Shown here: positions 48,430 to 63,632 of the stretch, piece by piece
Layout of the letters: each line of letters starts with the position of its first letter
How positions within the stretch are numbered: position 1 is the stretch's first letter
Assembly: GCA_905221605.1 (NCBI GenBank)
Contig: CAJNDS010002839.1
Location: 20,001-84,000 of the forward strand
Origin: Symbiodinium natans
Lineage: Eukaryota; Sar; Dinophyceae; Suessiales; Symbiodiniaceae
Direction: 5' to 3'
Length of the DNA stretch: 64,000 nt
Made by a program: the position numbers and the translations under genes
Notes under the pieces: model-generated
What the model was told of the DNA's origin: nothing
The model's input: only the letters and a program-made list of their open reading frames with translations
The model's database searches: none

Positions 48430-49440
48430 TTCTGCCTACATTGGCCTACGTGCCTCTGATCAGGCGTATGCACGCAAGCCCAAGTCGTCCTTATACTCTA
48501 TTCGTCCATATTCCCCCCCTGCGACGGAAATTCCCAGCCTACTGGCCTACGCAGCCCAGAGCACGGAAGAGCCTGACACTTCGGAGTGAAACTCTGCACC
48601 GGTTCAGAGTGACTGGCCTGAGAGCTTGAGCTGGCCGACACAGCAAGATGTGCACGCTGCGAGCCCACAGCACTGTCACACCGGTGGCAACTCAGCGCAG
48701 CTCAACTCGCATCTGGACGTAGCTCAGCTCGGCCTCACTCGTCAGCATACGACCTGAGAGCACCAAGCAGCCAGCAGCAAGATGCTCCTAGATTTGGCTC
48801 CCCGGTGTTCAACAGGTTTTTTAAGCGGCCCACGCCCCAGCCCCGCTTCCACTTATGCCGCTGGCGTAGGCTGAGCTGCCTCCGGCACCTGTACATCCCA
48901 AACAGACCCAAACTGCAACCGGATGAGAAACCGAGTCATACCGAGTCATGAGTCATGTTGTAGGTCAAGCTTCCATGTGTTATCCACACATCTGCCTGTC
49001 GCAGATTGACCTTGGCTGGATCCACCTGTCTTGCTGCCGCCCCTCCTGCCTTTCGTGTCCTGCTGCAGGCAAAGCTACAAGTCTACAAGCCCCCGCCCAA
49101 CTAAACGGAAGAAGCGCTGCAGTCTCCTGGATGACTTTGCGAAGCACCTCGTGGGACCAGGGCAGATAACAAGAGTCTGTTGGAGCAGCTAAGGCCCTCT
49201 GGCACGACTTCGACAGACATGTCTCCGACACTATGGCTATACGGGGCTTCTCCGGTTTGAATGGTTGGAGCGACCTCAAGTGTCTCGAAACATTACCGAC
49301 TCACCCTCTTGCAGGGCCCCGACATCACAGCGGTGTGCAGCTTCGGGTGGGGTGAAGGGCTGCAGGTATAGGACTTTCGAAAGCATTTGCCCAGTGCCCT
49401 GACTCATGTACTCGTGCGTGTTCTCACGTGCCCGTGCGAA
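48430..49440. other. No supportable gene
   Basis: Sequence between the tail of the globin-channel gene and the preceding possible exons. No conserved segment was seen on either strand. Confidence 0.35.
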
Positions 49441-49449
49441 AGTGTATGC

Positions 49450-50314
49450 TTGGCACAACTTCAACCACGCCAACTCCTGCCGGATCTTGGACAGAAAAGG
49501 CAGGCCCTGAAAACTTCGGCACCTTCCTGGCCATGGATTCGACCTTCGACAGCTTCTCCTGATCTCCACCTGTGCCAGGATCTCTTCAAATTTCGCTTGG
49601 AGAGTTTCAATGACCTCGGAGCAAACAGAGGCTGCGACGGTGCTTCGTCTCCTCTGGCCACTGCAGCTCGGCGGAGCACGAGCCACCAAAGCGCAAGATG
49701 GAGTCCTGGGTGCCGTTGCACGGGTGGGGGATTGAGTGAGATCTGAATATGCACCCGCCACGTGCCTTCAGAACCACATGCTCACTTGCCGGCTCTGTGA
49801 TCTGCATACCGCCAGCCACGCCCACATCGCCCTAAGGTGGAGAGGGGACAGTGGCTCATGAACCCACGCAGCAAAAGCGCTGTTTCAAGCGCCTCGTTGA
49901 ACTCCAATGGCTGATCAAGACGAAGGCTTTCGATGAAGGTCCTCAAGTGCGAAAGCAAGAGGTGAGGAACGTAAAGCTGCAAGCGCCGACTGCCTGCAAG
50001 CATCGTGCAAGAGACAGAGACAGAGAGAGAGAGAGAGAGCTTGCAGCCAGGCATCGTCCAATTGTTCCTGTTGAAATTCGCAAGTGCCTGATCAAACGTG
50101 CAATCCGAACTGCCACACGACTGCCAGCATCCAACACCAGACCACGACACGGGACTTGAGTAGTCAATTGTGCGAGTCAAACCAGAGAATCAAACAGCAA
50201 ACCTGTAGCTTTGCCAAAGCGAGTGCTGGCTTCATGGTCCACGCAGCAACCTTCTGAGACACGAGCGTCTACAATCTTCTGGGCGCGGTTGAGTCGAGCA
50301 AATCCAACCATGTC
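49450..50314 (-). CDS. Cytoplasmic tail of the fusion gene (exons 25-31)
   Basis: Exons: 50314 to about 50260 (DMVGFARLNRAQKIVDA), 49941-49893 (FIESLRLDQPLEFNE), 49831-49766 (GDVGVAGGMQITEPASEHVV), 49705 to about 49655 (DSILRFGGSCSAELQWPE), 49614-49570 (VIETLQAKFEEILAQ), 49558-49523 (EKLSKVESMARK) and about 49510-49460 (LPFLSKIRQELAWLK). The last three are coiled-coil, suggesting oligomerisation, as in other channel tails. The 3' junction of the first is unresolved: the frame seems to slip by one base near 50275, which could be a further splice or an indel. The stop codon was not fixed. Confidence 0.6.
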
Positions 50315-53300
50315 CTCAACCCATGACAACTGCTTGAGCTGTTTGAGCTATGCGAAAATGTGCACTGCGCATTGCACGGGTCCCACCTGGTAGATATAGA
50401 CATAAGAGCTGTTGAGCTGGGCAATCAGCAGGTTCATTAGAAGGATTGACGATGCCAGGACCTATTCGGTGCGACAAGTGCTGAAAGCACAGCCAAAGCT
50501 AGACTACAGCAACTCTGGTGGCTTGGCCGGCTCTGAGTCTTAATGAGTGGTCTTGCAGGCTGGCCGCGAAAAGCAGCACCGCAGTGAGCAAGGCCGGCTC
50601 GTACATGAGAGTGCCTTGGAGTATAGTGAGTATAGTGAGTATAGGCACAGATGTGCTAGCCGCTGCTAACCTGCCCACCGAATGACAAGCGGACCGCCCT
50701 GGAACTCTGTACAGAAGCGGTACATGCTACCACACATATGGTACGTGAAGTCTGTCCATGCTGTGGCACAGATGCTAAATATTCTTTGGGCGAGTTGCGG
50801 TAGTCATCTTCGTACAGAAGCACGGTGATGGAGAACAAACACAAGACGGTGTTCCTGGCATGTTTCCAGGCATACTGGAAGTCACAGGAAGTCAGGGCTC
50901 TGATCATCTTTGACTCAATTAGTAGCAGCTTTCCAAAATGGTTTCAGATATGAGTGCGGCCATGCCACGGGATATCTCGCATTTCCTGACACTTCGAAAC
51001 TGGGCATGTGAGTAGAGATCTGGGAGCGAGCGGCTCACGCTGCATGTGGAGGTCGGCATGAAGCTTCAGCTATAGCATCTGAGGCTCAAAGTACCCATGG
51101 TCCAGGACGCTGATGGCACTCCCGAACGTCAGCAGGAGGAAGATCAAGGCAACGAGGAAGCGACCGATCTCACTGAGGACCTTGCAGGGCCATGGCTTCG
51201 CAAGACGAGGCAGGAAAGATAAGTTCATAGAACTGTCAGAATACCCCCTTCACACCTGTGCACAAACGAGGACGAAGGCCGATAGCCCCGTGGAGAAGAC
51301 GGCCAAGTCGACCATCAGGAACCAGTGCACCGCCATGGCAACGAGGCCAAGGGCCGAGTAGGTGAACCGCACACCCTGGAAAGGGGAGGCAGGTTTTGGG
51401 TTTTGCCACCTCCCTGGCTGATCAAGTTGCACTTCAGGACTGGCACAAGGGTAAAATCCTCTTTGAAAGTCTGCTCCGCAAAAGGCTCAGGAATATGACT
51501 GTTTCATCGTCTCCCTGCCTCGATGTCCTCACAGTCATAAGTTGGCCAGTCTTGTGGGCTCGAGGCCAGGCAATGATACATCGGCTCATAAGCACACATT
51601 AGAAGAAGCAGCATCGCCAAGACCTCAGGAATTGGCTTCCACAAGATTCATTACACGATTCACCATGCATCGTCTCTTTCAATGCCTGATTAATATTGAT
51701 TAATATAAAGCGTATGCAGATGAGATCTTATGCCTGGTGTGCAAACTGATACTATCCACCTCTTGTGTAAGAGTTGTCCCTCTTGTTCAAAGGTGGATAC
51801 ACATCTTTGCGCGTTGTCGGGGATCCAACTGTTTCTCATGTTGGCTGGTTTATTCTGATGGGTTTCCTTTGCTTGAAACATGAAAGCCCTGGAATATGTC
51901 ACAAGGTCATCATAGACGCGTTTGGGCTTTATGTGCCTCTGAAACAAAGCAGAGACAAACCCATATCCGAAGTGGGTGGGCGTTGCGCACCCCATATCTA
52001 GACATCTTCTCTTCAAAACAACAGAAACATTTTCCTTTCGTGGGGCTTTCGCGTGCCTCTCCGCAGGCTCCGAGCCTCTTTTTTTTCCTCTCTTGCTGGA
52101 TTGGGACAATATGGACAACTTGCACACAAGGTGTACGACGTGAGCCATTGCAGCAGCAGCAGCTGCTGCAGCAGTCCTACACACAAAGACGTGCCACACT
52201 GCAGAACACCCACTGCCACAAGAATGTTCACGTGTGGTTGGAAGCGAAGTTAGGAATGAGAAAAACAGCTGTGTCTTCTTCTGCAGGAGGCACATTGCCT
52301 GGACGCCGCATATTCCCACGGCCAGTGCCAGGCATCCCTCTGCCATGCATGAATTGTATGCATGCAACTGTCTTAAAAGTTTGCAAAGCTGTACAATGAC
52401 CCTTGCGCTGCAGGGATTAGATGAGGTGCCCTGTTAGCATTTGTTGCTTGGCATGAATGCGTGATCAGGCTGCAAGGTCGGCAAGAGGATTTCAGTCCTT
52501 TCGAAAAAACTGTAGCAAAAGCGCAGTAACAATAAAATTCAACTGCACAATCAGCAGAGGGATTCTGCGGTAGGTGTGAGCACAATGGTCTGCTCTGGCT
52601 CTGGGGCTGGTAGGAAAGACCCTTCCTCATCCAGGATCACCTTCCGACTTCTGGTGGAAAGCCCTCACACCTCCATCATGGGCTGTGCCAGAGAGCAGAG
52701 AGGCTCTGAAGGCCATCCAAGCTTTCAGCAGCAGCAGCCACCAGCGTCGCCCGAAGATCGCACGGGCTCAACTTTTCTAGGTTGTCCTTTCAGCTTCCGT
52801 TCTCTGCTCACCCTCGCGCGCAGCGAACAGGGTGCCTTCTGGTTCGGGCTCCGCACTCTCCGCCTCACTCGAAACGTCACTCTCCAGTACCTTCGGAGAG
52901 GTCCGGGTGGTGCGTGTAGAGCCGGCATCCTCAGCCAGTTTGTTCAGGAAACTGAAGATGCGTTCCGGGCACTTGCCATGCAGGATGTCGCAAGGGATCC
53001 CCGCACAGTGGGTCGTCCGTGCCGCCGGTGCCCAGCGAAGCGCCAGGTTCACGGGTGTCAACGTCGAGTTCGAAGGCCTCGTTGACAATCCTCATAGGCT
53101 CTGCGAATGGATCCAAGTTGGGGTTGGCCATGTACAGGTAGTCCACGTCGGTGAACAGAAAAACGCCAGCCGCCCTAGCTGAACCGCTGTTAGGGCTGCC
53201 AGGTTGTCGTTGTCACCAAAGCGCATGCCGTCCGTGTTGGTGGTGTCGTTCTCATTGGTGATTGGAACCACGCCAGCTTCGAGACATGCTGCAATCGTGT

Positions 53301-56300
53301 CCCGAATTTCGGCCCAGCGCTGCTGCTCCAAAAAGTCACGCTGGCTCACCAAGAGCTGAGCAATTTTTAGTCCCACTGTCTCGAACAGCTGAGTACACAC
53401 GCATGATGCGACTTTGGCCCGCCCCAGCGACTGCTCGTTTCAGCGCCGGCGTCGTGGGCTTCTTCTTCAACCCCAGCTCCGGAAGAGACAAGGACAACCT
53501 TGAACCCTTGCTAGGCAAGGTCTGCGATGACTTCTACTAACCTCGAGAGGTTCGGAACATTCACTCGCTGGCCTCGCTCGTCCGAGGTCATGATCGTCGA
53601 AGTTCCGAGCTTCAACACGAGCGTTTGGCACGCGGCCGACATCTTGAGTCAAGAGCGTATAACTTGGCAAAAATGCTTCTTCTCTGTTCTCTATGTGCTG
53701 TGCTTGAGCCCAATGGGGGTTTTTGGGGCAAGGCTTTCAGTTGTGGCATGCCATGCCAGCCCTTGCGCCATCCTCACTACGCCAACGTGGCGTTGGACCA
53801 ATCAAGTCCTGAACCCACACCAATCGTAGAGCGACGTTTCTGTGAGGGTTTCAGCTTCTGCTTCCACACTGCCACGAAAAAAAAACTTGCTAACCACAAT
53901 GTGCAGCTACGTCACCAGGTTGCCCATAGCCATTGCATTATGCAGATACTTTGGTATGCGAATGCACTTCACGCGAGCCCACTTGCCACGGCGACAGTCT
54001 TTCACGCATTTCCAAACACATCCTGGCATCCGCAGTGGCAGAAAGATTCAGGACTGACACAGGGAAGGCCGCTCGCTGCATACTGCTGCCCATGCACACC
54101 GTGTGCGACGTGTGACAATATATGACAATCCTGTAATATCCCGACTTTGTGCAGCTTGGGATCTGATGAGTAGTCTTGTCATGGTCACGAGGTACATGAA
54201 GGTACGCCCAAAGAAGATCACAACTCGAACTTCCCAAATGGATTCAATCTCGGTGGTCTTTGGCAAGATTGCCACACTCAGCATAAAGATCAGCAAGCTG
54301 GCGAGGAACCACAGGCGGGAGAGAAGAAAGTAATTTCGCACAATGCCACCCCACCTCAGATGTGAGTGACTTTTGGATTTTGGACATTGTTTCACAGCAT
54401 CCCTTGAAACACGTTGCGCAGTGCTTTAACGGCATCGCCCGGCAGACCCTTAGATCTGATGTACTTGTACGCCACGAAAGCCCATTCCGTGGCGAACCAC
54501 AAAGCAGATCACCCGCAAACTAGCATAAATAAGAAAACAAAACAGAAGTGCTCGAGCAGCTTCGTGCAAGCTGCAGGGTATCAGACACCATGACAACTAC
54601 CGGATGCACCATGATCTTCGGGTCTTTTGTGGTACAAATTTCCCTGAGGAATTCAGCCGTCTCGCCCTCCTGCAGGTACAAAGCTTGAGTCGAGTTTGCC
54701 AGCATTGTTTCTATTGCCTCTCAAGGTCGTTTTCGTGAAGACCCGTCCTGATTCACAAGAAGATGTTTCACCTGGGATAGGCTGCAGGGCATCCAAGGTT
54801 GGTGATCAAGAACGATGAAGGCCAATGCAGGCGTATGCAGGCTTGGCACATAAAAATTCACGCGGCGCAGCCCGGCATTGGTTCGAGAGGAGCGCCAAAT
54901 CAAGCCATCGAGAAGAGTCGGGATAAGAGTGGGCGCCTGCGGCATTGCACATTCAGTCTATGACAGTCCCACCTTCCGAGACATTCCCATGTGTTTCCTT
55001 TCAACGCCACGCCTCTCTGCATAACCGATTTATGATGTCCTGGTGACGCTCGAAAAGTGCATCGTTTCCTGAAGCTGCCGTCTCGCATCATACTGTTGAT
55101 AACATCTTTTCGAGAAGCCCTATACGAGACACGAATCAGCATTCCCCAGTCTGCAAGGGTTAGTTTTGTCATGGGCCATCAGGTGGGTCGTAGTGCACAT
55201 GGCAAGTCAAGATTGAAGCATCACTCTCTTAGAGACTCTCTTGTCCGATTGTCTCCTCACCAGCTCTGTCTTCTTGCCCTGACAAGGATCCGTAGTAGTA
55301 CTTCTCCCGGTCTGCACGAATCAGAAGCAGGTCATGTATGATCGCCTCTCCAGAGAGGAAAGAAAGAAGCACGGCAAGATTGAAAACGTTGCAAGAAGCA
55401 TTTGGCAGGTTCACTCTTAGCTCTCTTAGACTCTTAGGACTCTTAGGTCTGATTGAAGCAACTGCTGTGGTTCGGCCTCCGCGGCTGCCAGGCTGCCACT
55501 CTCGATTGCCCAGTACAAAGGGGAGATCGAATGGGTGCCAACCTTATATAACTTCACCATTTTGTGATATTCTGTGTGTTCTGACACACGAGATGGGAAT
55601 GGACACTCTTTGGGGCAGACCTGGATCTTCAGTAGCCACTGGAAGCGCTGCCCTCGAGGAGCACAGCTGATGGCCCTCTGCCTCGAAGTTGGAAAGCTGG
55701 ATTGTGGATTCAACGGATCTTGCGATACAATCCACTCGACTGGAGATGTGATTCACCGTCATGGCTGCATCAGAGATAACCTACCCCCTGCTGCCAGGTC
55801 ACAACATCTTCTTGGAATTCGCATTGACTGCCTTCGAACGACTCTGTTTCATGACACTTCCCACAATTGCAGGCTTCGGGCCACAAGCTCGCAAGATACA
55901 CCCCGCCTTCATTACGATCGTGGACCCTTCTGCGATCGTCCTCACCTCAAGCACAGCAAAGCCGCGCCACGATTGACAGGCAAAACTCCTTCAGTCGACG
56001 CAGTCCATGTTGATCCGTGTTTGGGGTCGGGCCAGCTGCTTGGACACCATGCCCAAAGACCACTTAAAGCCCTGCAAGGCCACCACATTTTCCTCAGCAT
56101 CACGAGTCAAGTGAGGGTCTAAGCCACGCACAAGCGTCCCTGTCTACAACAACTGTCAGGTTGACACTGCTCCATTGGAAAGTAGTCATGACCAAAAAAG
56201 CAGCACCTCTCTTCCAAGCACAGTGGCGCCGACCGCATCCTTGATGACCTCCACACACGCATTGACCTCAACAAAACGTCAGTGGCTTTCAGATCTGGTT

Positions 56301-59300
56301 CCACGGACTTAAGCTGAGAAGACTTGAGCCTCATACAAAGGGAGCAAACATCTCGGTCGGCACTCCATACCCGACGTGACGCAGCCCCAGCGCCGAGAGA
56401 TCATCGATCAACTGCCATGTCACAGCTGTCAGTTGCGAAGTTCAACCAGGCATGCCCACTGCGGCTCAAGACCATTCTTGTGAACATTGTGACACGCGTG
56501 GTTGGGGCTTTTGGCCTTCCAAGGCTCTCCATAAATCTCGATTGAGAACGTGAAAACCTCTGCAAATGCTGTCAGGGCTGCTGCAAGCATCTCGGCTGCA
56601 GCACTACGTCAGGCGCGGCCTTCTCTGCAATGAAGTGCAAGCGTGTATCAGATTGCTTGAAATATTCTTGGCCAGCGGGGGTTGATGCAAAAAAACCTTG
56701 GTTGGTCTAAGCCCACTTTCGCTCGACCCATACAGCTGATGTTTCGTGGCCATTTGGTGGATAGTAATGGACAAAAAAGCCACAGAGACTTCACTTCAGG
56801 CCAGCCACGCTCATAGATCTCCGCGCGAAGCTTGTAACCTTGGCTCCCATAGTTGACAACCCCTTGAAGGCTGACGAGATTGATTGGAAGTCCGACTGCA
56901 AGTCAAGGGACGCGCGTCCTCACCCACGGAACCGAAAAACTGGTTCACAGCTGCCTCGCTCAGGGTCACCCTCCCCACGCTCCCTCACCCCCCCCCCCCC
57001 CCCCCACTCCCACTGATCTCCTGGACTGCAAGTCTCAAGAAAACACACCGCGAGGCCACGCCTCCCACTTGTAGGAGCTGCCAAGAGTCTGTACCTAACA
57101 GTGCAGAACCAATCTTGCATGGAACCACCAGGTAACACCAGCTGTGACTCAACCATGCAGCGCCCGGGACCGGGAAACTGGTGCAGCCCTAGCCGCAAGC
57201 AGTGTCGCCACATTATCCCAAAGCCAATTCCAAGCAACCTCGTAGTTTGTGTCCCATTCCTGCAGGCAAACAATCAGGCCTGCCTGCACATGAGGACTTG
57301 TCATACACAGCCAAGATTCTGGAAGGGGGGTTCTCTTTGTTTCGAAAGGCATACGCACATGCCCCTTCTCTTTGTTTCGAGAGGCATACGCACATGCCCG
57401 CTTCATCCATTTCTGTTCAACAATAAACACACAATGCACGGGGTTGGGCCCCCCACCCCCCCCCCCCCCCACCATTTGCAAACACAATGCTCGCATGACG
57501 GGTTTGGAGGGTATTTGCGCGTTCTTCATCGAATGATCTTCTTGATACAAAGCAGCCTTGCACGGCTCAAAAAACGCGGGGGGGAGGGTGGCCTGGGAGG
57601 GGGGCCTGACTGCCCCAAACACAATGCTTGCATGACGGGTTTGGATTTGGAGGGGGTTCGTATGTTCTTCATGGCATTGTCTTCTTCATAAGAAAGCTTG
57701 CATGGCCACAAGAATGAATAAACCACGCCGGGAGGGGGGGCTCTTTGTTCTTCTTTTTGCTTAAGCATCTACTGTTGTCGTTAGCCTCGCATTCCACCGT
57801 TCATTTGTTGCTTTGTCGTTGCTTCTTTCGGTACGTACTTGTTTTATGCAAGTTGTTTCTCCCTTGAATTAGGTGGTTATTCACTTCTTTCTTTCTCCTT
57901 ATGCATTTCATTAGATATGTGTATATATGTGTGATGTTCTTTATCTTAGTATCGTTCGCCATTTCGTTTTTATGTATATATGTCTTTTCTTTCTTTGTCT
58001 TTCTGTCTCTCTCTCTATGCAAGTACTCATGTAGCTACAGTTGCTTGCTTTTTTTTGTTCTTTCTTGCGGCATTTCTCTCTCAATTTCTTCCTGAAGATA
58101 CATAGTTGTGTGTCTGTGTGTATTGGCTTTTCCTTGTGCGTGCACGCGGTTGTTGCTTTCTCTGGTTCTTTCCTTCACTGTCTCTGCATTGACCCTACAT
58201 CGCCAGATCTTTGTTTCTCAACTTAGTCGTGACTTGCAATTAGACTTGCTATGTCCTTATTTATTTCGCTGTTTGTGTCTTTCCTTTGTTTCGTTCGTTC
58301 TGTCTGTAATCCTATGTTTCTTTGTTGATCTTTTTTGTTGTATTATTGTTTGGATTTCCGTTCTTTCTGTATTTCTTTCGCTGTGTCTTTCGGTCTTTCG
58401 TTGTTTATTTCCTCGTTCAAATCTTTCTTTTTCACAAGGGCCTCGACTGCACATCTTTCTAAACCTCTATTCCGCTATATTCAAATAAGAAAACCTCTAA
58501 AGGAAATCTCAACTATCTCTGCATTTTCAAGGAAACCCCAATCAAAAAAACTGACCAACAGAGCGCTATGTATTTGGGTGATGCTATTGACGTCATGAGT
58601 AGTGGTGACTTGTTGCCGCCGTCGTGTCTTCACGTATTTGAGCGAAACGTCGCGTCTTCGACCCAAAACCTTGCTCACCCCTACTTTCAATGAATGTCTT
58701 CATCATTTTGTTCACCGTTGTTTTGTACTTCGCCCCCTTCCTCGGCCCGTTCGAATAGCGACAGCCCCCGATCACCTTCTTCTTTCCTCCCCCCCCCCCC
58801 CCAGCTCTCAACATCGGCATTCTTGTTCTGCGTCTCCACCCGCTCTCGGTCTTGCTCCGTTCACGTCTCCTCCGATGTCGCTTGGCAGCAAGTTCTATTC
58901 TCACGTGGCCTGCGCTTCCCCTTCCCCTTCACAACCTCCCTCATCTTGTTGGTGGTGCCCCTGTTGATCCTCGGCATGCCAATATCACGATTTGTGTTGG
59001 TGATCTTCTCCCCCACCCACTCCTTCATCTTCCCCTCCCCTCTGTTTTTGCTCGTCGGTTCCCTCTCCTCTCGCTCTTTGGCCAAATCACGGACTAGCCG
59101 AATGGACCCTCACCGTCCTTGCCTTCATCCTTCTTCCTCCCCCTTGTCTTATCGGGGCTGGTCGGATGTCCTGGACTTTCACCAAGTCCTCCGCCTCCCC
59201 CACTCCATGCACCTGCCATTTCCCCCAGCGCTTGAGCTGGTGTTCTCCACTCTTCCTCCTCCCGAGGCGATGGCATCCGCTGGGCGAACCTCTGCCGGAG

Positions 59301-60183
59301 CCCCCCTCCCCCCTCCTCCAAGGCACATGTAGCGCCTCGGACACAAGCCTCCCAGGCGCGCCTGCCTTCTGCAATCTCTTCCGCGCCCTCTCAACTACTT
59401 TCTTTCTTTCGTTGGGGCCTGAAATCGTGACCCCTTCTGTGCAAGGCATATGCCTTCCTTTCCTTCCATGGGCCACAGTGTAAACACCACGAAGCCTGGC
59501 TGAGCCATGGCGACGACGACGTTTTCGCGACAAGTTTAACTTTTAGTACCCTTTTGTTTGATCCCAGCGATGGGCTCCACACAGAGATGCCAAAGTCGAC
59601 ACGCGGGTTGGTGCAGTGGCTCAAATGGGGTTGATGCGCTGCGGAGAGATGGTTTTTCGGGTGCACGAATGCAGATTGCCAGCCTTTGGAAGCAGGGATC
59701 GCAATGAGGCCAGCATGCAGGATTTGAATTGCGCCAAGTTTGGGGCCTCGTCCATGCAGGAAAATGCTTACCGCTTGAAGTGGCGAAGCACATGTCATAA
59801 CTTTGCATGAACGACCGCTTCTGCTCTGGGCTCGCTGCCTGACCTCGGGAGACCTGCCGGCTTCGACAGCTATGAGCGTCAAGATTTCAGGCACATGTTC
59901 GTTTCGCTGGAGTCGTATCTCGACCATGGAATCGCCCTTGCCTTGTCGATCCGAAGCGATAGCAAGTCGCATTCCTCGTGAAGTCGCAGTGCGTCCGCTG
60001 CGTTCACAACGATGTCTCCGAAGGAATTCAAAATTTGCTCCATCCTGGGGATCGACCGAGCGCATGCGCGAGTAGCGTCGCACAGGTCTGTTGTTTTCTT
60101 GGCTATGTGCAGAAGAGCATCCAACCGCCGATGCCAAACCCCATGACTTGCGAGTTGAATCTGAACATCTCCTTGACCAGGGC
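49450..60183 (-). CDS. Globin-domain/six-TM cation-channel fusion gene (about 30 exons)
   Basis: About thirty tiny exons on one strand give a single continuous protein; almost every join keeps phase. Order: an N-terminal globin-like segment, a second full globin domain with proximal-His motif LGLRHVGYGVP, a linker (CAPRGQRFQWLL, HSISPLYWAIESG, IRADREKYYYG, LPTLLDG-type), then a membrane region (WFLASLLIFMLSVAIL; RVVIFFGRTFMYLV; MVDLAVFSTGLSAFVLV; IGRFLVALIFLLLTFGSAI; a pore-like LCLFSITVLLYEDDYR; ILLMNLLIAQL) and a coiled-coil tail (VIETLQAKFEEILAQ). The last segment is typical of S6 in voltage-gated/TRP/polycystin-type channels. A haem-sensing or gas-sensing cation channel is the inference. 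First exons, the S2-S3 exon and the exact stop are unresolved. Many introns start with GC or GA. Confidence 0.8.
50017..50040. repeat. GA microsatellite in an intron
   Basis: About ten GA units next to two GACA units, inside an intron of the globin-channel gene. Confidence 0.9.
50387..55675 (-). CDS. Linker and channel half of the fusion gene (exons 13-24)
   Basis: Mapped exons: 55675-55621, 55542-55477, 55345-55291, 55068-55013, 54936-54850, 54771-54748, 54669-54575, 54354 to about 54189, 51375-51256, 51180-51095, 50899 to about 50796, 50461-50387. The first seven encode a soluble linker (ALFERHQDIINRLCRE, LLDGLIWRSSRTNAGLRRV, VHPVVVMVSDTLW). From exon 20 on there are hydrophobic segments in channel order, ending with a S6-like ILLMNLLIAQLNSSYVYIYQ. 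Exons 15 (at 55290) and 18 (at 54747) appear to use GA donors. An exon at about 53920-53990 (RIPKYLHNAMAMGNL) may supply the missing S2-S3 loop. The 2.8-kb intron 54188-51376 contains a kinase pseudogene. Confidence 0.75.
52780..53642 (-). pseudogene. Glutamate 5-kinase/P5CS retro-pseudogene in a channel-gene intron
   Basis: Glutamate 5-kinase, alone or as the first half of P5CS, starts proline synthesis. From the ATG at 53642 the frame gives LVLKLGTSTIMTSDERGQRV, then a TAG at 53513-53511. Further pieces in shifting frames follow: VVLVSSGA, LGLKKKPTTPALKRAVAG, VGLKIAQLLVSQRDFLEQQ, VVPITNENDTTNTDGMRFG and FTDVDYLYMANPNLDPFA, ending with ILHGKCPERIFSFLN. Lesions seen: one stop, loss of a few residues after VLVSSGA, a slip at the RVYSAV/CTQLFE junction, one missing base in a G run after VQLG, and a deletion after LGTGGT. 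No introns remain. The copy is in the same orientation as its host gene. It may be P5CS, but no reductase half is clearly visible. Confidence 0.85.
53643..53719 (-). other. Two relic dinoflagellate spliced-leader sequences
   Basis: Directly before the pseudogene ATG the minus strand reads CTCTTGACTCAAG, matching 10 of the last 13 bases of the dinoflagellate spliced leader (ATTTTGGCTCAAG). About 50 bases further upstream it reads CCATTGGGCTCAAG, matching CCATTTTGGCTCAAG with one gap and one mismatch. Spliced leaders are added to mRNA, so their presence in DNA marks reverse-transcribed, reinserted messages. Two in series suggest two rounds. Confidence 0.6.
55803..60183 (-). CDS. Globin half of the fusion gene (exons 1-12)
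   Basis: Mapped exons: about 60183-60140, 60044-59942, 59746-59684, 57259-57154, 56895-56809, 56696-56620, one at about 56558-56510, 56411-56337, 56266-56207, 56092-56033, 55945-55907, 55831-55803. The first four form a partial globin-like segment (ADALRLHEECDLLSLRIDK, FKSCMLASLRSLLPK, YEVAWNWLWDNVATLL), in which the position of the proximal His seems to hold no His. The rest form a full globin fold: RAEIYERFFASTPAGQEYF (helices A-B/C), RLHFIAEKVFTFSIEIYG (E), LGLRHVGYGVPTEMFAPF (F, with the proximal His), VNACVEVIKDAVGATVLG (G), GFKWSLGMVSKQLVRTIAEG (H). Donors at 59941, 59683, 56619, 56032 and 55906 are GC. Each exon length agrees with its start and end phase. Confidence 0.8.
56988..57006. 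repeat. Poly-C tract
   Basis: A run of about 17 C within an intron of the globin-channel gene. Confidence 0.9.
57260..59683 (-). other. Large low-complexity intron of the globin-channel gene
   Basis: This intron joins exons ending LRSLLPK and starting EWDTNYEV in perfect phase. It holds poly-C runs near 57458-57470, two direct copies of a 36-bp unit (TTTGTTTCGARAGGCATACG, about 57337-57398), two diverged copies of a 130-bp unit starting AACACAATGCTYGCATGACG (about 57480 and 57618), then about 1.6 kb very rich in T and C on the plus strand (57760-59430). Open frames across it are composition artefacts. Confidence 0.7.
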
Positions 60184-60499
60184 TCGTAAGTCCAATGCAC
60201 TTCCAGTACCACAACACATCTCATGGGCACTCACAGGCCAGGTCACCGAAAACGTCATGGGCACCACCATTCCAGTCTGACCAGTGGCTGCGGCTTGGGT
60301 ACCTATGGACGCAAACCACTCTCGCACATGGCACGCCCAGAGTTTCATGTGACATCTGTCGAGTTGCCACTGTTGGTGCCGCCGGCATTCGACAGATTGT
60401 TGAGATTGTTCAGATTCTTCGGAGAGGCCTCTCAGCTTATTCTCATCGGATACTGGTGGTGACAGGCAAGTAGCTTCTCCGGTCCGCTCCGCGCAGCCT

Positions 60500-61110
60500 T
60501 CATCGTGGCAGTTCGACTTAAAGCTCTGCCACCGCCTCAGCTTGAGAAAGGCACAAAATTCGCCGGAGGGCCTGATATCCCGTGTCACAATCATGCTTCA
60601 AAGGACGGCATCGCATCTTAGGCAAGGACCGTCTGCATGCCTCCTTCGACAGAAGGAGCAGCATCCCTGCAAAAGACGCCCAAGTGTGGCATGAGACATG
60701 CTTTGAATTTGAGGCGGCGGAAGGTGAACACATTGAAGCGTGTGCTAGCTAGCTGCTGGGCATGCCCTGGATTCGCAGTGCTGTGGTGTGAGGCCTTCTT
60801 CTCTTCCTGTGCTGCTTGCGCAGTATCCGCTTGCTCTTCCTTACTTGCAGAGACGGCGCGGGGAACAACAAAGCATGCCCTTCGGATGCGCTTTGGCAAG
60901 ATGCTGATCGCAGGCTGTTCTGCTCCTCGTCTTCCACACCCTCCTGCTGGGTGAGTCTGAGCAGGAGGTTACATATGAACAACCAAGCAGTTGTCACAAT
61001 GCCTGTCAGCTGGCAACAACCCCAGAAGGCACGTAGCTTCACTACGCTTTTTGCAGCATCGCTCAGTCTGTACAAACGCAACACTTGCACACCCTCAAGG
61101 ATCTGTACAA
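60500..61110 (-). CDS. Unassigned exons including one membrane segment
   Basis: The minus frame at 61090-60955 reads LEGVQVLRLYRLSDAAKSVV followed by a hydrophobic stretch CQLTGIVTTAWLFICNLLL. A second stretch near 60590-60530 reads TGYQALRRILCLSQAEAVAE. They lie between the nucleoside hydrolase stop at 61150 and the first mapped globin exon. They could be the 5' exons of the globin-channel gene or a small separate membrane protein. Confidence 0.3.
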
Positions 61111-61149: not shown

Positions 61150-62850
61150 TCAGTCTGGTGTAGCTCCCAGAATGACTTGCCGGAAGCGGTCATCATCATA
61201 GTCCACGCTTATCCATGTACCGGTACCAGTCTCGAGGACGGATCCCCAGCCCTTTCTGTCTCTGTAGACTCGCACCTCCGCAAACTGACACACGCTCTCA
61301 TCCACAACCGCTGCCATAGCCAACGGATCGTGAAGCTTCTTACCCTCGCCCCGCGAGTAGTTGCTCATGGCTTTGAATAACCTGCTGCTGGGGTGAGTTT
61401 GTTTAAGTTTGCGCATCTTCATCCTCCAGGCGGAATGAATGCTGCCAAGATACAACTGAAGCGCACTGGCTCGTGGTGTGTCAGCCTTCTCTTTTTGAAT
61501 GGCCTCTCGGAAGGCCTCATGCAGCCGGCTGTCGTACACGACCTTCCCACAGAAGGCACACAAGTGCTTCTCCCTTCCGGTCACAAGAATTTCAGTCAAG
61601 CACTACCTCATATTCCGCCCTGAACATCCATGAGTCGATGGCGCGGTGGCAGACGTTCTTGGACACCAGCACCTTTCTGCTGATAGCTTCGCTGGCTAAA
61701 GCAGCATGTGCTGCTGCCTGATTGCCTCGGCATCTTGCCTAAACGGCACATACTCCCCCTCAATGATTTTGACTTGCCAACCGTAAATGCCATGGTGTTG
61801 TGACTATGTTCCACTGTCAACTACTGTCCACTCCGGCCGCGACCATTGAAGTTCCAGGTTTCACACGAGGATTTCCCCGCGAACTTCCTTGCTGGCAAAG
61901 GCATCTTTAGCGCCGCTAAGTCCCGCGTGGCCACCACATATCCGACTGCGGATTCTGCAGATTGAAAAGCATTGTAGGGCACTTTGAAACACCAAGGCGC
62001 TCCATCTGCAAGTGCTTTGGCACGACGCCCTCACCAGCGAAGCCTCCCTGCGCCACCCACCGTCCGAGGGTCAGACCTCCCAGCTCCAGCGCCGCTCCCA
62101 GGTTGTGTAATGGGCCTGCAAGGAACCCTTGGCAGAAAACAGCTTCATGGCACCACGCTTGCACTGCCTCCGGTGAGAAGCGTCGTGTTGGCATCGCAGC
62201 ACTCTATCAACACTTGCGTGGCAGTCTCGATGGCTGCATCTGCAGGGAAGGAACAATCATGAACCGGATGTCAAGCTCTAAGCTCTTTCACCAGACGAAC
62301 GCCTCGCAGAACTGCCTCCGGAACCTTGCCAAAGCTGTCATAGAACTTGCCCCGAATGCACTTCTTGTCCGCATTCTTGGGCCATTCTTGTGCGCCCACT
62401 CGCACGTCACTTAACTTCAGCTCTTGCAGTATCCAGAGCACCAAGGCGACCTGCTCAGCAGCACCTCAGGCAAAGACATGGAGGGGCATCTGAGCCAAGG
62501 CACTTACGACAATTCTTGTCACCTTGGAAGGCTCCCACCCCGTCTGCCGAGACATGCCCGAGACCCACGCCTGGAGTGATAGTCACCTCAGCTCCCAGGA
62601 TCACGCTGCGGACCCCGCTGTTGGCCTTGCTCCGAATCTAAAGTCGGGCAGCTACGCGAAAGAAGCGTGGGCATCTGAGGCCAGAACGGCCCGGAGGTTG
62701 ACTCTCGGATTTGCTACAAGCAGAAGCAATGTGAGCACATCGTCGGGATCGCCGGTTTCCATATCGAAAACCACCTTTGAAGGGCTCACGCACCAAACCA
62801 GATGCTCGACCTCTTCAAGCAACCCCCCCCCAGGCCCCCAGGCGGCAAAA
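61150..62850 (-). CDS. Inosine/uridine-preferring nucleoside hydrolase-like protein
   Basis: The family cleaves nucleosides to base and ribose in purine/pyrimidine salvage, using a calcium ion held by an Asp-rich N-terminus. Exons: about 62850-62690 (FDMETGDPDDVLTLLLL, the Asp motif), 62590-62575 (VTITPG), 62480-62300 (EQVALVLWILQELKLSDV), 62235-62170 (TATQVLIECCDANTTLL), 62140-62000 (GPLHNLGAALELGGLTLGRW, VAQGGFAGEG), 61900-61840 (CETWNFNG), 61720-61640 (SRKVLVSKNVCHR), 61545-61150 (VVYDSRLHEAFREAI, LHDPLAMAAVVDESV to the stop). Order and spacing follow the family, including the NFNG and late HDPLA motifs. Several donors are GC. The 5' end is undefined; coding-like sequence continues to about 63060. 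Confidence 0.75.
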
Positions 62851-62859
62851 ACCGAGTCT

Positions 62860-63100
62860 CTAAAAAGGACTCACCTCATTGTACACCACTGGTTGCATCA
62901 CAACATCTTCATGCGCAGGCTGCGAGGAACTCTGGGGCGACATGTTTGGGGGCCAGCCTCCAGTCTTGAACATGCCTCTCCGATGTCGTCTCTGCCTTGG
63001 GCTCTTGCTTTCTAGATGATCTTGCAGCTTGAAATGGCGCCAACGGTGCGAGCTCGGGCATGACTTTGTGTCAACGCGGGCAGCGCTGGTCGGACAAACA
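62860..63100 (-). other. Coding-like stretch of uncertain frame
   Basis: Two overlapping minus frames (one with PELAPLAPFQAARSSRKQEP, another with QPAHEDVVMQPVVYNEV) both look protein-like. This may be the 5' exon of the nucleoside hydrolase-like gene or the 3' exon of another gene. Confidence 0.25.
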
Positions 63101-63415
63101 GAATAAAGTCCCTTGAGATCGAAACCCTGACAAGCCCAGAATACGAACTGCACAGAAGCCAGCTGCTGAAGAGACTGCTATGATGCGGCCGCGCGTTTAC
63201 CTAAACTGATAGTTCTGGACGAGCGTGAGAGCCCCGAAGAAAGAAAGTGATTGGGAGTGAGTCACATGTAAAAGTGCGGATGAGGGGCCAGAAACAGCCG
63301 GCGGAGGGGCAGGCCGGGAAGGCTCAGAAGGAGCGTAGCCCTCCAGCTGCGAGAAAAAACGGACAATGAAGGTAGTGAAGCCCAAGAGCATATGAAACAT
63401 ACATGGCCACATAGT

Positions 63416-63632
63416 TCAGATCGTTTCATCATTGTTTTCTGCCTCTCCAAAAACGCTCCGTGGCCCCCAGGGCCTCCTTGGCCTCGGTGTTTCCGCTTCG
63501 CTGCCAGCGCCTTCGCCGGCCTCGCGCGGCAGCAGGAATCGAAGGTGGCTTGAGAGGCAGATGTGGAGGCAAAAAACAAAAACAATATAAAAAGAGAGAG
63601 AGAGAGAGAAAAAAAAAAAAGAGAGAGAGAGG

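Follow-up and report, generated by a model that had tools for sequence, protein, structure and literature searches.

A candidate haem-globin sensor built into a TRPV-like channel gene of the dinoflagellate Symbiodinium natans

Do the globin and ion-channel motifs encoded along one dinoflagellate contig belong to a single protein, and what would globins do in a channel? The question is raised by a locus of Symbiodinium natans lying in a stretch of 64,000 nucleotides (contig CAJNDS010002839.1, positions 20,001 to 84,000; C2527:20001-84000 of an assembly totalling 759,417,921 bases), hereafter the window. The reading favoured here, with a probability of roughly 0.6, is that one gene encodes a TRPV-like cation channel carrying a cytosolic sensor module of haem globins and working by the gating mechanism proposed below.

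Spliced alignments, made with a program written for the analysis (donors GT, GC or GA, acceptor AG, stop -40, frameshift -30), placed the gene on the minus strand, the original prediction having given no strand:

48735..60956, minus strand: globin-TRPV-like channel gene, its part inside the window (47 exons, 924 codons), stop TGA at 48737-48735

The coding frame ran through 924 residues with no stop or frameshift and the TGA immediately 3' of the last exon; the 5' end of the first in-window exon was uncertain (60956 or 60946). Both motifs on which the original prediction rested, LGLRHVGYGVP (56390-56358) and ILLMNLLIAQL (50446-50414), were found, and they did lie in a single frame, 828 of 929 residues being identical to homologue P0001 in an alignment free of frameshifts and stops. 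The predicted number of about thirty exons gave way to the 47 found inside the window, and the span of 49450..60183 proved too short, the gene reaching 48735 in the window and about 68027 (window numbering) beyond it. No break was seen at 55.7-55.9 kb, where a transcript break had been named as a possible refutation: exons 55831-55803 and 55681-55621 were recovered with both alignment templates, and P0004, a protein with a transcript-type name, aligned straight across, its residues 554 and 555 being consecutive.

In single control runs, the minus strand scored 3527 vs 97 for the plus strand, 106 for the reversed protein and 114 for the shuffled one. With six templates of 89% to 50% identity, the first being P0001, itself used in building the model, exact agreement with the 47-exon model was obtained for 41, 41, 37, 35, 34 and 30 exons; a template of 61% identity thus recovered 35 exons and that of 50% identity 30. 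Donors were GC in 26 introns, GT in 14 and GA in 6, and 45 of 46 downstream exons started with G, under a method that imposed AG acceptors and G[T/C/A] donors and gave a small bonus for G after the intron; dinoflagellate introns typically have GC and GA donors and a G after the acceptor. One 8-nucleotide exon of the P0001-guided version was replaced in the merged model by the P0003-guided version, and a P0001-guided first exon at 61444-61413 was spurious and was removed.

The N-terminal 200 residues of P0001 had no counterpart inside the window. The missing N-terminal exons, including those of a first globin (globin 1), were found in the adjoining 9.9 kb of the contig, colinear and on the same strand, which rules out a loss of globin 1. 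The joined alignment covered 1131 residues in 62 exons, of which 14 lie outside the window (or 13 when P0004 served as template), with 992 of 1128 residues identical to P0001 (88%) and no frameshift or stop; this version stops short of the last exon of the 47-exon model. The whole gene spans window-equivalent positions 68027-48735 on the minus strand, about 19.3 kb. The overlap of exon 61154-61137 with the end of a nucleoside-hydrolase gene described below makes this exon doubtful.

A homologue search with hand-joined exon translations as query gave 698 proteins with E<=1e-3 out of 7991 candidates that were scored (top match 71% identity, 99% coverage), and the counts given here rest on the best 120 of the 698. 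Those named by organism were dinoflagellates (Symbiodinium, Effrenium, Durusdinium, Polarella, Prorocentrum); most of the remaining entries came from sources labelled jgi and lgn, on contigs of about 2.4-4.3 kb. In a core-region tree of 119 rows, the window protein grouped with P0009, P0001, P0002 and P0003, all Symbiodinium, the five forming the smallest set with good support (SH-like approximate likelihood ratio test 97), P0004 coming next. Could two neighbouring genes merely appear joined, through an artefact of assembly or annotation? Neighbouring genes are indeed merged in some dinoflagellate gene models, P0003 and P0054 being cases in which a nucleoside hydrolase is attached to the channel. 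Against this, the same chain occurs among homologues named in transcript style (mmetsp, CAMPEP, TRINITY or TRDRNA2; 20 of the 120, counted by hand) and the phase is continuous across 47 exons, which makes an artefact very improbable.

The chain runs from globin 1 through a haem-less globin remnant and globin 3 to an ankyrin-like linker, a six-helix TRPV-like channel with TRP helix and a C-terminal helix. Homologues, Pfam, profile search and structure prediction all supported the predicted architecture of globin plus six-helix channel. In the model predicted for the closest homologue, P0001 (88% identical), globin folds and a six-helix TRPV-like channel, whose absence had been named as a further refutation, were both present: globin 1 matched Hell's Gate globin I, globin 3 flavohaemoglobin and the channel TRPV1 and TRPV3, the match lists being dominated by TRPV, TRPA1 and globins. 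A structure of P0009 predicted with no alignment was unusable (predicted local distance difference test 41.7). A profile built from 88 sequences found TRPV3 (7e-11) and TRPV1 (4.5e-9) over S4-S6 and Hell's Gate globin I (3e-8) over globin 1, and the window chain alone as query matched TRPV1 at 2.2e-4. The hidden Markov model check that had been suggested came out in part, Globin being above the Pfam cut-off on the window chain (5.8e-8) and Ion_trans under it there, though above it in relatives P0006 and P0017. Among 42 members hand-picked for spread from the 120 and scanned at E<=1e-3, Pfam recognised Globin in 42, Ion_trans in 16, Cyt-b5 in 5, EF-hand_1 in 3 and PKD_channel in 3.

The globin half occupies the following positions in the window:

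60247..60956, minus strand: low-complexity linker exons from globin 1 to the remnant (EDEEQNSLRS ... GCCSFCRRR ... GMVVPMTFS), placed by spliced alignments
57197..60171, minus strand: degenerate middle globin, EMFRFNSQVMGFG..LNSFGDIV..LLSLRI..FKSCMLASLRSLLPKEWDTNYEVAWNWLWDNV, with Ile at the proximal-His position
55907..56954, minus strand: globin 3, complete and of haem type, with LGLRHVGYGVP
56620..56696, minus strand: globin 3 exon with the CD1 Phe and distal (E7) region, QEYFKQSDTRLHFIAEK, from the exon model and homologue alignment
56376..56378, minus strand: codon (CAC) of the globin 3 proximal His F8, in exon 56411-56337; His in 116/118 homologues

Haem-site residues were counted over the 120 listed homologues, gapped rows being excluded. 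Globin 1 displayed Tyr B10 in 74/92, Phe CD1 in 87/95, Gln E7 in 72/98 and His F8 in 90/94, and the copy of this genome has Tyr71, Phe85, Gln92 and His124; the F8 exceptions were P0003 and P0054, whose N-terminus is the merged nucleoside hydrolase, and P0057 and P0103, which are badly aligned there. Globin 3 displayed Tyr B10 in 103/118 and Phe CD1 in 117/119 besides its proximal His, and 89 of the 120 homologues carry the proximal His in both globins. Fold, F8 His and CD1 Phe, the features of a 3-over-3 globin, were present in globin 3 and globin 1, the F8 His being absent from the middle segment. Haemoglobin alpha aligned with globin 3 at B10 and CD1, and Glycera haemoglobin at F8, the matches being weak (E 0.02-0.08). 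His460 (His in 103/119) was set aside as the distal E7 residue of globin 3, since E11 would then be Asp or Glu (97/119); on these counts and the helix spacing, the invariant Leu459 is more likely E7.

Hell's Gate globin I and flavohaemoglobins have a pocket formed by Tyr B10 and Gln E7; the bacterial O2 sensor HemAT has one with Tyr B10 and Leu E7. Given these residue pairs, globin 1 is likely O2-avid and the pocket of globin 3 may be sensor-like. The flavohaemoglobin pocket of globin 1 would also suit a haem enzyme tethered to the channel, in which the globins serve as nitric oxide (NO) dioxygenase, peroxidase or redox relay and the fusion sites this chemistry at the membrane or lets its product act on the channel. 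The structural matches of globin 3 to flavohaemoglobin and of globin 1 to Hell's Gate globin I fit such an enzyme, as does Cyt-b5 in 5 of the 42 scanned members; no reductase family was found among those 42, however, and an arrangement of two haem-type globins with a haem-less one between them, the TRPV-like linker coming directly after, appears more sensor-like than enzyme-like, so that an enzyme is unlikely here. A channel responding to haem loading (apo vs holo globin) instead of gas, and acting as a haem or iron sensor, would be compatible with the conserved proximal His, iron and haem supply being important to marine algae; we consider it slightly less probable than the enzyme, the conserved distal Tyr B10 and Gln E7 of globin 1 pointing to a bound small ligand.

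The partial globin segment of the original prediction exists as a globin-like segment; it proved to be the haem-less remnant, and an extra complete globin, globin 1, lies upstream of the window. This middle globin is split by an intron of 2424 nucleotides (59683-57260). Its best Pfam match was Globin at E 0.045 over helices E-H, below the cut-off, and hhalign gave 46% (P 2e-4) with globin 1 as template, 13% (P 0.002) in the reversed comparison and 0.1% vs globin 3, four controls giving 0.1-1.1%. From these comparisons the segment is likely, not certainly, a globin at all. A haem globin is ruled out, the proximal His being found in 0/116 aligned homologues, which have Ile (87), Leu (23), Met (5) or Val (1) at this position. 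The general lack of this His would suit globins that serve as a structural N-terminal fold for assembly or partner binding, with no sensory role, in a channel gated by temperature, force, lipids or Ca2+. TRPV channels answer to many stimuli and 3 of the 42 scanned members have EF-hands; globin 1 and globin 3, on the other hand, keep their haem-site residues in homologues down to about 40% identity, and we judge this structural role a little less probable again than haem sensing.

The channel half and its linker to the globins lie as follows:

54575..55831, minus strand: ankyrin-like linker joining globin 3 to transmembrane helix S1, from a TRPV3 (6mho) alignment over model residues 489-1054; Ank_2 0.04, below cut-off
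54164..54354, minus strand: exon with most of S1 and S2 (model helices 699-740 and 748-783 of P0001)
51088..51623, minus strand: exons with S3, S4, S4-S5 linker and S5, from the exon model, TRPV1 alignment and structure model
50799..50985, minus strand: pore helix with filter (NTVLCLFSITVLLYEDDYR), counterpart of the TRPV1 filter region in the alignment
50267..50614, minus strand: S6 (ILLMNLLIAQL) and TRP helix (GFARLNRAQKIV, aligned to TRPV1 IWKLQRAITIL), from alignment and structure model
48738..50087, minus strand: cytosolic C-terminus with the conserved block LEFNEGDVGVAGGMQITEP..RFGGSCSAELQWPEE, a predicted helix (the coiled coil of the original prediction) and a Ser/Gly-rich tail

Two traits of TRPV channels were found: six transmembrane helices with an S5-pore-S6 arrangement, and a TRP helix directly after S6, predicted as a single helix (952-1005) in the P0001 model, LNRAQKIVD aligning with LQRAITILD of TRPV1 in a match at E 2e-4. 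In the filter LLYEDDY, the Glu is kept in 68/120 homologues, the first Asp in 57/120 and the second in 90/119, and this acidic filter suggests Ca2+ permeability. The S4 helix has one Arg at its start and then no Arg or Lys up to the S5 helix (P0001 residues 853-895, the window chain being the same), which makes voltage an improbable main stimulus.

Several results weigh against a globin-gated TRPV-like channel. Ion_trans (PF00520) reached only E 0.0027 and 17.4 bits on the window chain, below the cut-off of 25 (27.6 in P0006 and 28.7 in P0017, above it; 22.4 in P0004 and 23.7 in P0013, below it), the globin 1 piece alone scored 21.5 bits for Globin, just under the cut-off of 22, and no ankyrin family exceeded the cut-off in any protein scanned with Pfam for ankyrins, Ank_2 on the window chain included. 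The structural alignments to TRPV were loose (root-mean-square deviation (rmsd) 5.1-7.7 A), Foldseek giving rmsd 8.1-14.8 A and whole-chain TM-scores of 0.22-0.27. In paralogues P0039 and P0083, Ala replaces the proximal His of globin 3, and the identity of the globin 3 distal residue is uncertain.

In the proposed mechanism, globin 1 and globin 3 would hold haem, the middle globin being a haem-less spacer, and altered haem ligation or oxidation state (O2, NO, redox) would shift globin 3. The ankyrin-like linker would relay the shift to the TRP helix and the S4-S5 linker, a role also supposed for TRPV N-terminal domains, and the relayed movement would open or close a pore with an acidic mouth, probably passing Ca2+. 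In TRPV the ankyrin-type linker region contacts the TRP helix, and since globin 3 abuts the ankyrin-like linker here, the physical path from haem to gate would be short. We infer a tetramer with occupied haem, permeable to Ca2+, in which a haem ligand such as O2 or NO, or redox state, controls the gate.

A haem sensor built covalently into a TRP channel would directly explain how single-celled algae sense oxygen, NO or redox state and convert them to Ca2+ signals, a poorly understood process. We know of no other ion channel with a globin sensor; if the proposal is true, ion channels would for the first time include a class that senses through a globin, and TRPV-like channels would gain a new sensor domain. 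The genes are present in the Symbiodinium group, which includes coral symbionts; in these, links to bleaching are known for daily oxygen swings and for NO signalling.

The chances are about even that the gene represents a large dinoflagellate family of globin-gated TRP channels, reading O2, NO or redox via built-in haem globins, with cytochrome b5, EF-hand or double-unit versions. Effrenium voratum has at least four members (P0006, P0035, P0090, P0097; 65 to 41% identity). A search with a long repeated consensus, meant to reach proteins from about 1490 residues upwards, had 25 matches, all dinoflagellate where named; Guillardia was not among these 25, which is no evidence of its absence.

An N-terminal cytochrome b5 was found in P0017, P0024 and P0097, a possible redox input to the channel, and an EF-hand, by position between S2 and S3, in P0074 and P0107, a possible Ca2+ input. 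P0143, P0144, P0145 and P0146 (2206-2304 residues) each align twice, nearly end to end, to P0001, that is two full units per chain, reminiscent of two-pore channels; Pfam found 2 to 4 globin stretches in the three of them that were scanned. At C2030:54723-60626, elsewhere in the genome of S. natans, Ion_trans matches five times in succession, an open frame of 2079 residues being given for every match; this is a multi-domain channel gene with few introns.

Two further coding stretches lie within introns of the gene:

61150..63520, minus strand: multi-exon nucleoside-hydrolase gene within the intron that separates globin 1 from the linker, 5' end approximate, from P0003-guided exons, own stop TGA at 61152-61150
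52900..53648, minus strand: broken, intronless amino-acid-kinase-like copy in the 2292-nucleotide intron 53915-51624, not part of the channel protein, from Pfam and frame switches

The nucleoside hydrolase is nested in an intron, because globin 1 exons lie upstream of it in this genome. Its own stop, the upstream globin 1 and the small number of hydrolase homologues joined to globin or channel led us to reject a gene-merge artefact as the origin of the globin-channel join. The corresponding part of the guide protein P0003 matched PF01156 at 1e-15; a homologue search for the hydrolase gave 24 matches, and by precomputed Pfam only P0003 and P0054 join it to globin or channel. The fused models of P0003 (S. 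pilosum) and P0054 (Durusdinium) are probably wrong, and these merged models suggest the same nested arrangement in both. Three dinoflagellate proteins were compared: P0122 ends at about the same place as the window gene, and P0121 and P0127 run on. All three (676-816 residues) have a long extra N-terminal region.

The kinase copy, which is glutamate-5-kinase-like, matched PF00696 on the minus strand at 1.5e-11 on 53095-53439 and at 0.081 on 53514-53648, with no match on 52934-53212. It looks like a reinserted mRNA copy; a search allowing 3 mismatches found no spliced-leader relic near it, and CCCATTGGGCTCAAG just upstream resembles one by eye only.

Set beside TRPV1, TRPV3 and TRPA1, the window protein differs by two haem-type globins and a globin remnant ahead of the linker, and its LLYEDDY stands in place of the TRPV filter GMGD. 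To our knowledge, no animal TRPV carries a globin. Bacterial globin-coupled sensors (HemAT and relatives) likewise place a haem globin N-terminal to an output module; their outputs known to us, none of them a TRP channel, comprise transducers, cyclases, kinases and, in Geobacter, one membrane domain. Hb-1 and Hb-2 of Symbiodinium are described as single-domain haemoglobin-like proteins with an F8 His, Hb-2 having isoforms of 198 and 247 residues, in which the authors detected no transmembrane areas (PMC3631397); they share a dinoflagellate globin with F8 His with the window protein and are short, unlike the fused channel chain. In the cryptomonad Guillardia theta, chimeras of 1060 and 1497 residues, described as starting with a putative cytochrome b5 and as sharing six globin domains between the pair, resemble in their cytochrome b5 and three globins the Cyt-b5-bearing P0017, P0024 and P0097, and the whole words 'channel' and 'transmembrane' are absent from the main text of that report (PMC4101818). 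Androglobin and nematode glb-33 are eukaryotic chimeric globins too, but are a calpain-type protein or a receptor, not a TRP channel (PMC13331133). Searches of open-licence PMC papers showed no globin-channel fusion among the matches listed. The parts are thus known and their combination was not reported in the literature searched; judged from sequence, the protein would be a variant of both TRPV-like channels and globin-coupled sensors.
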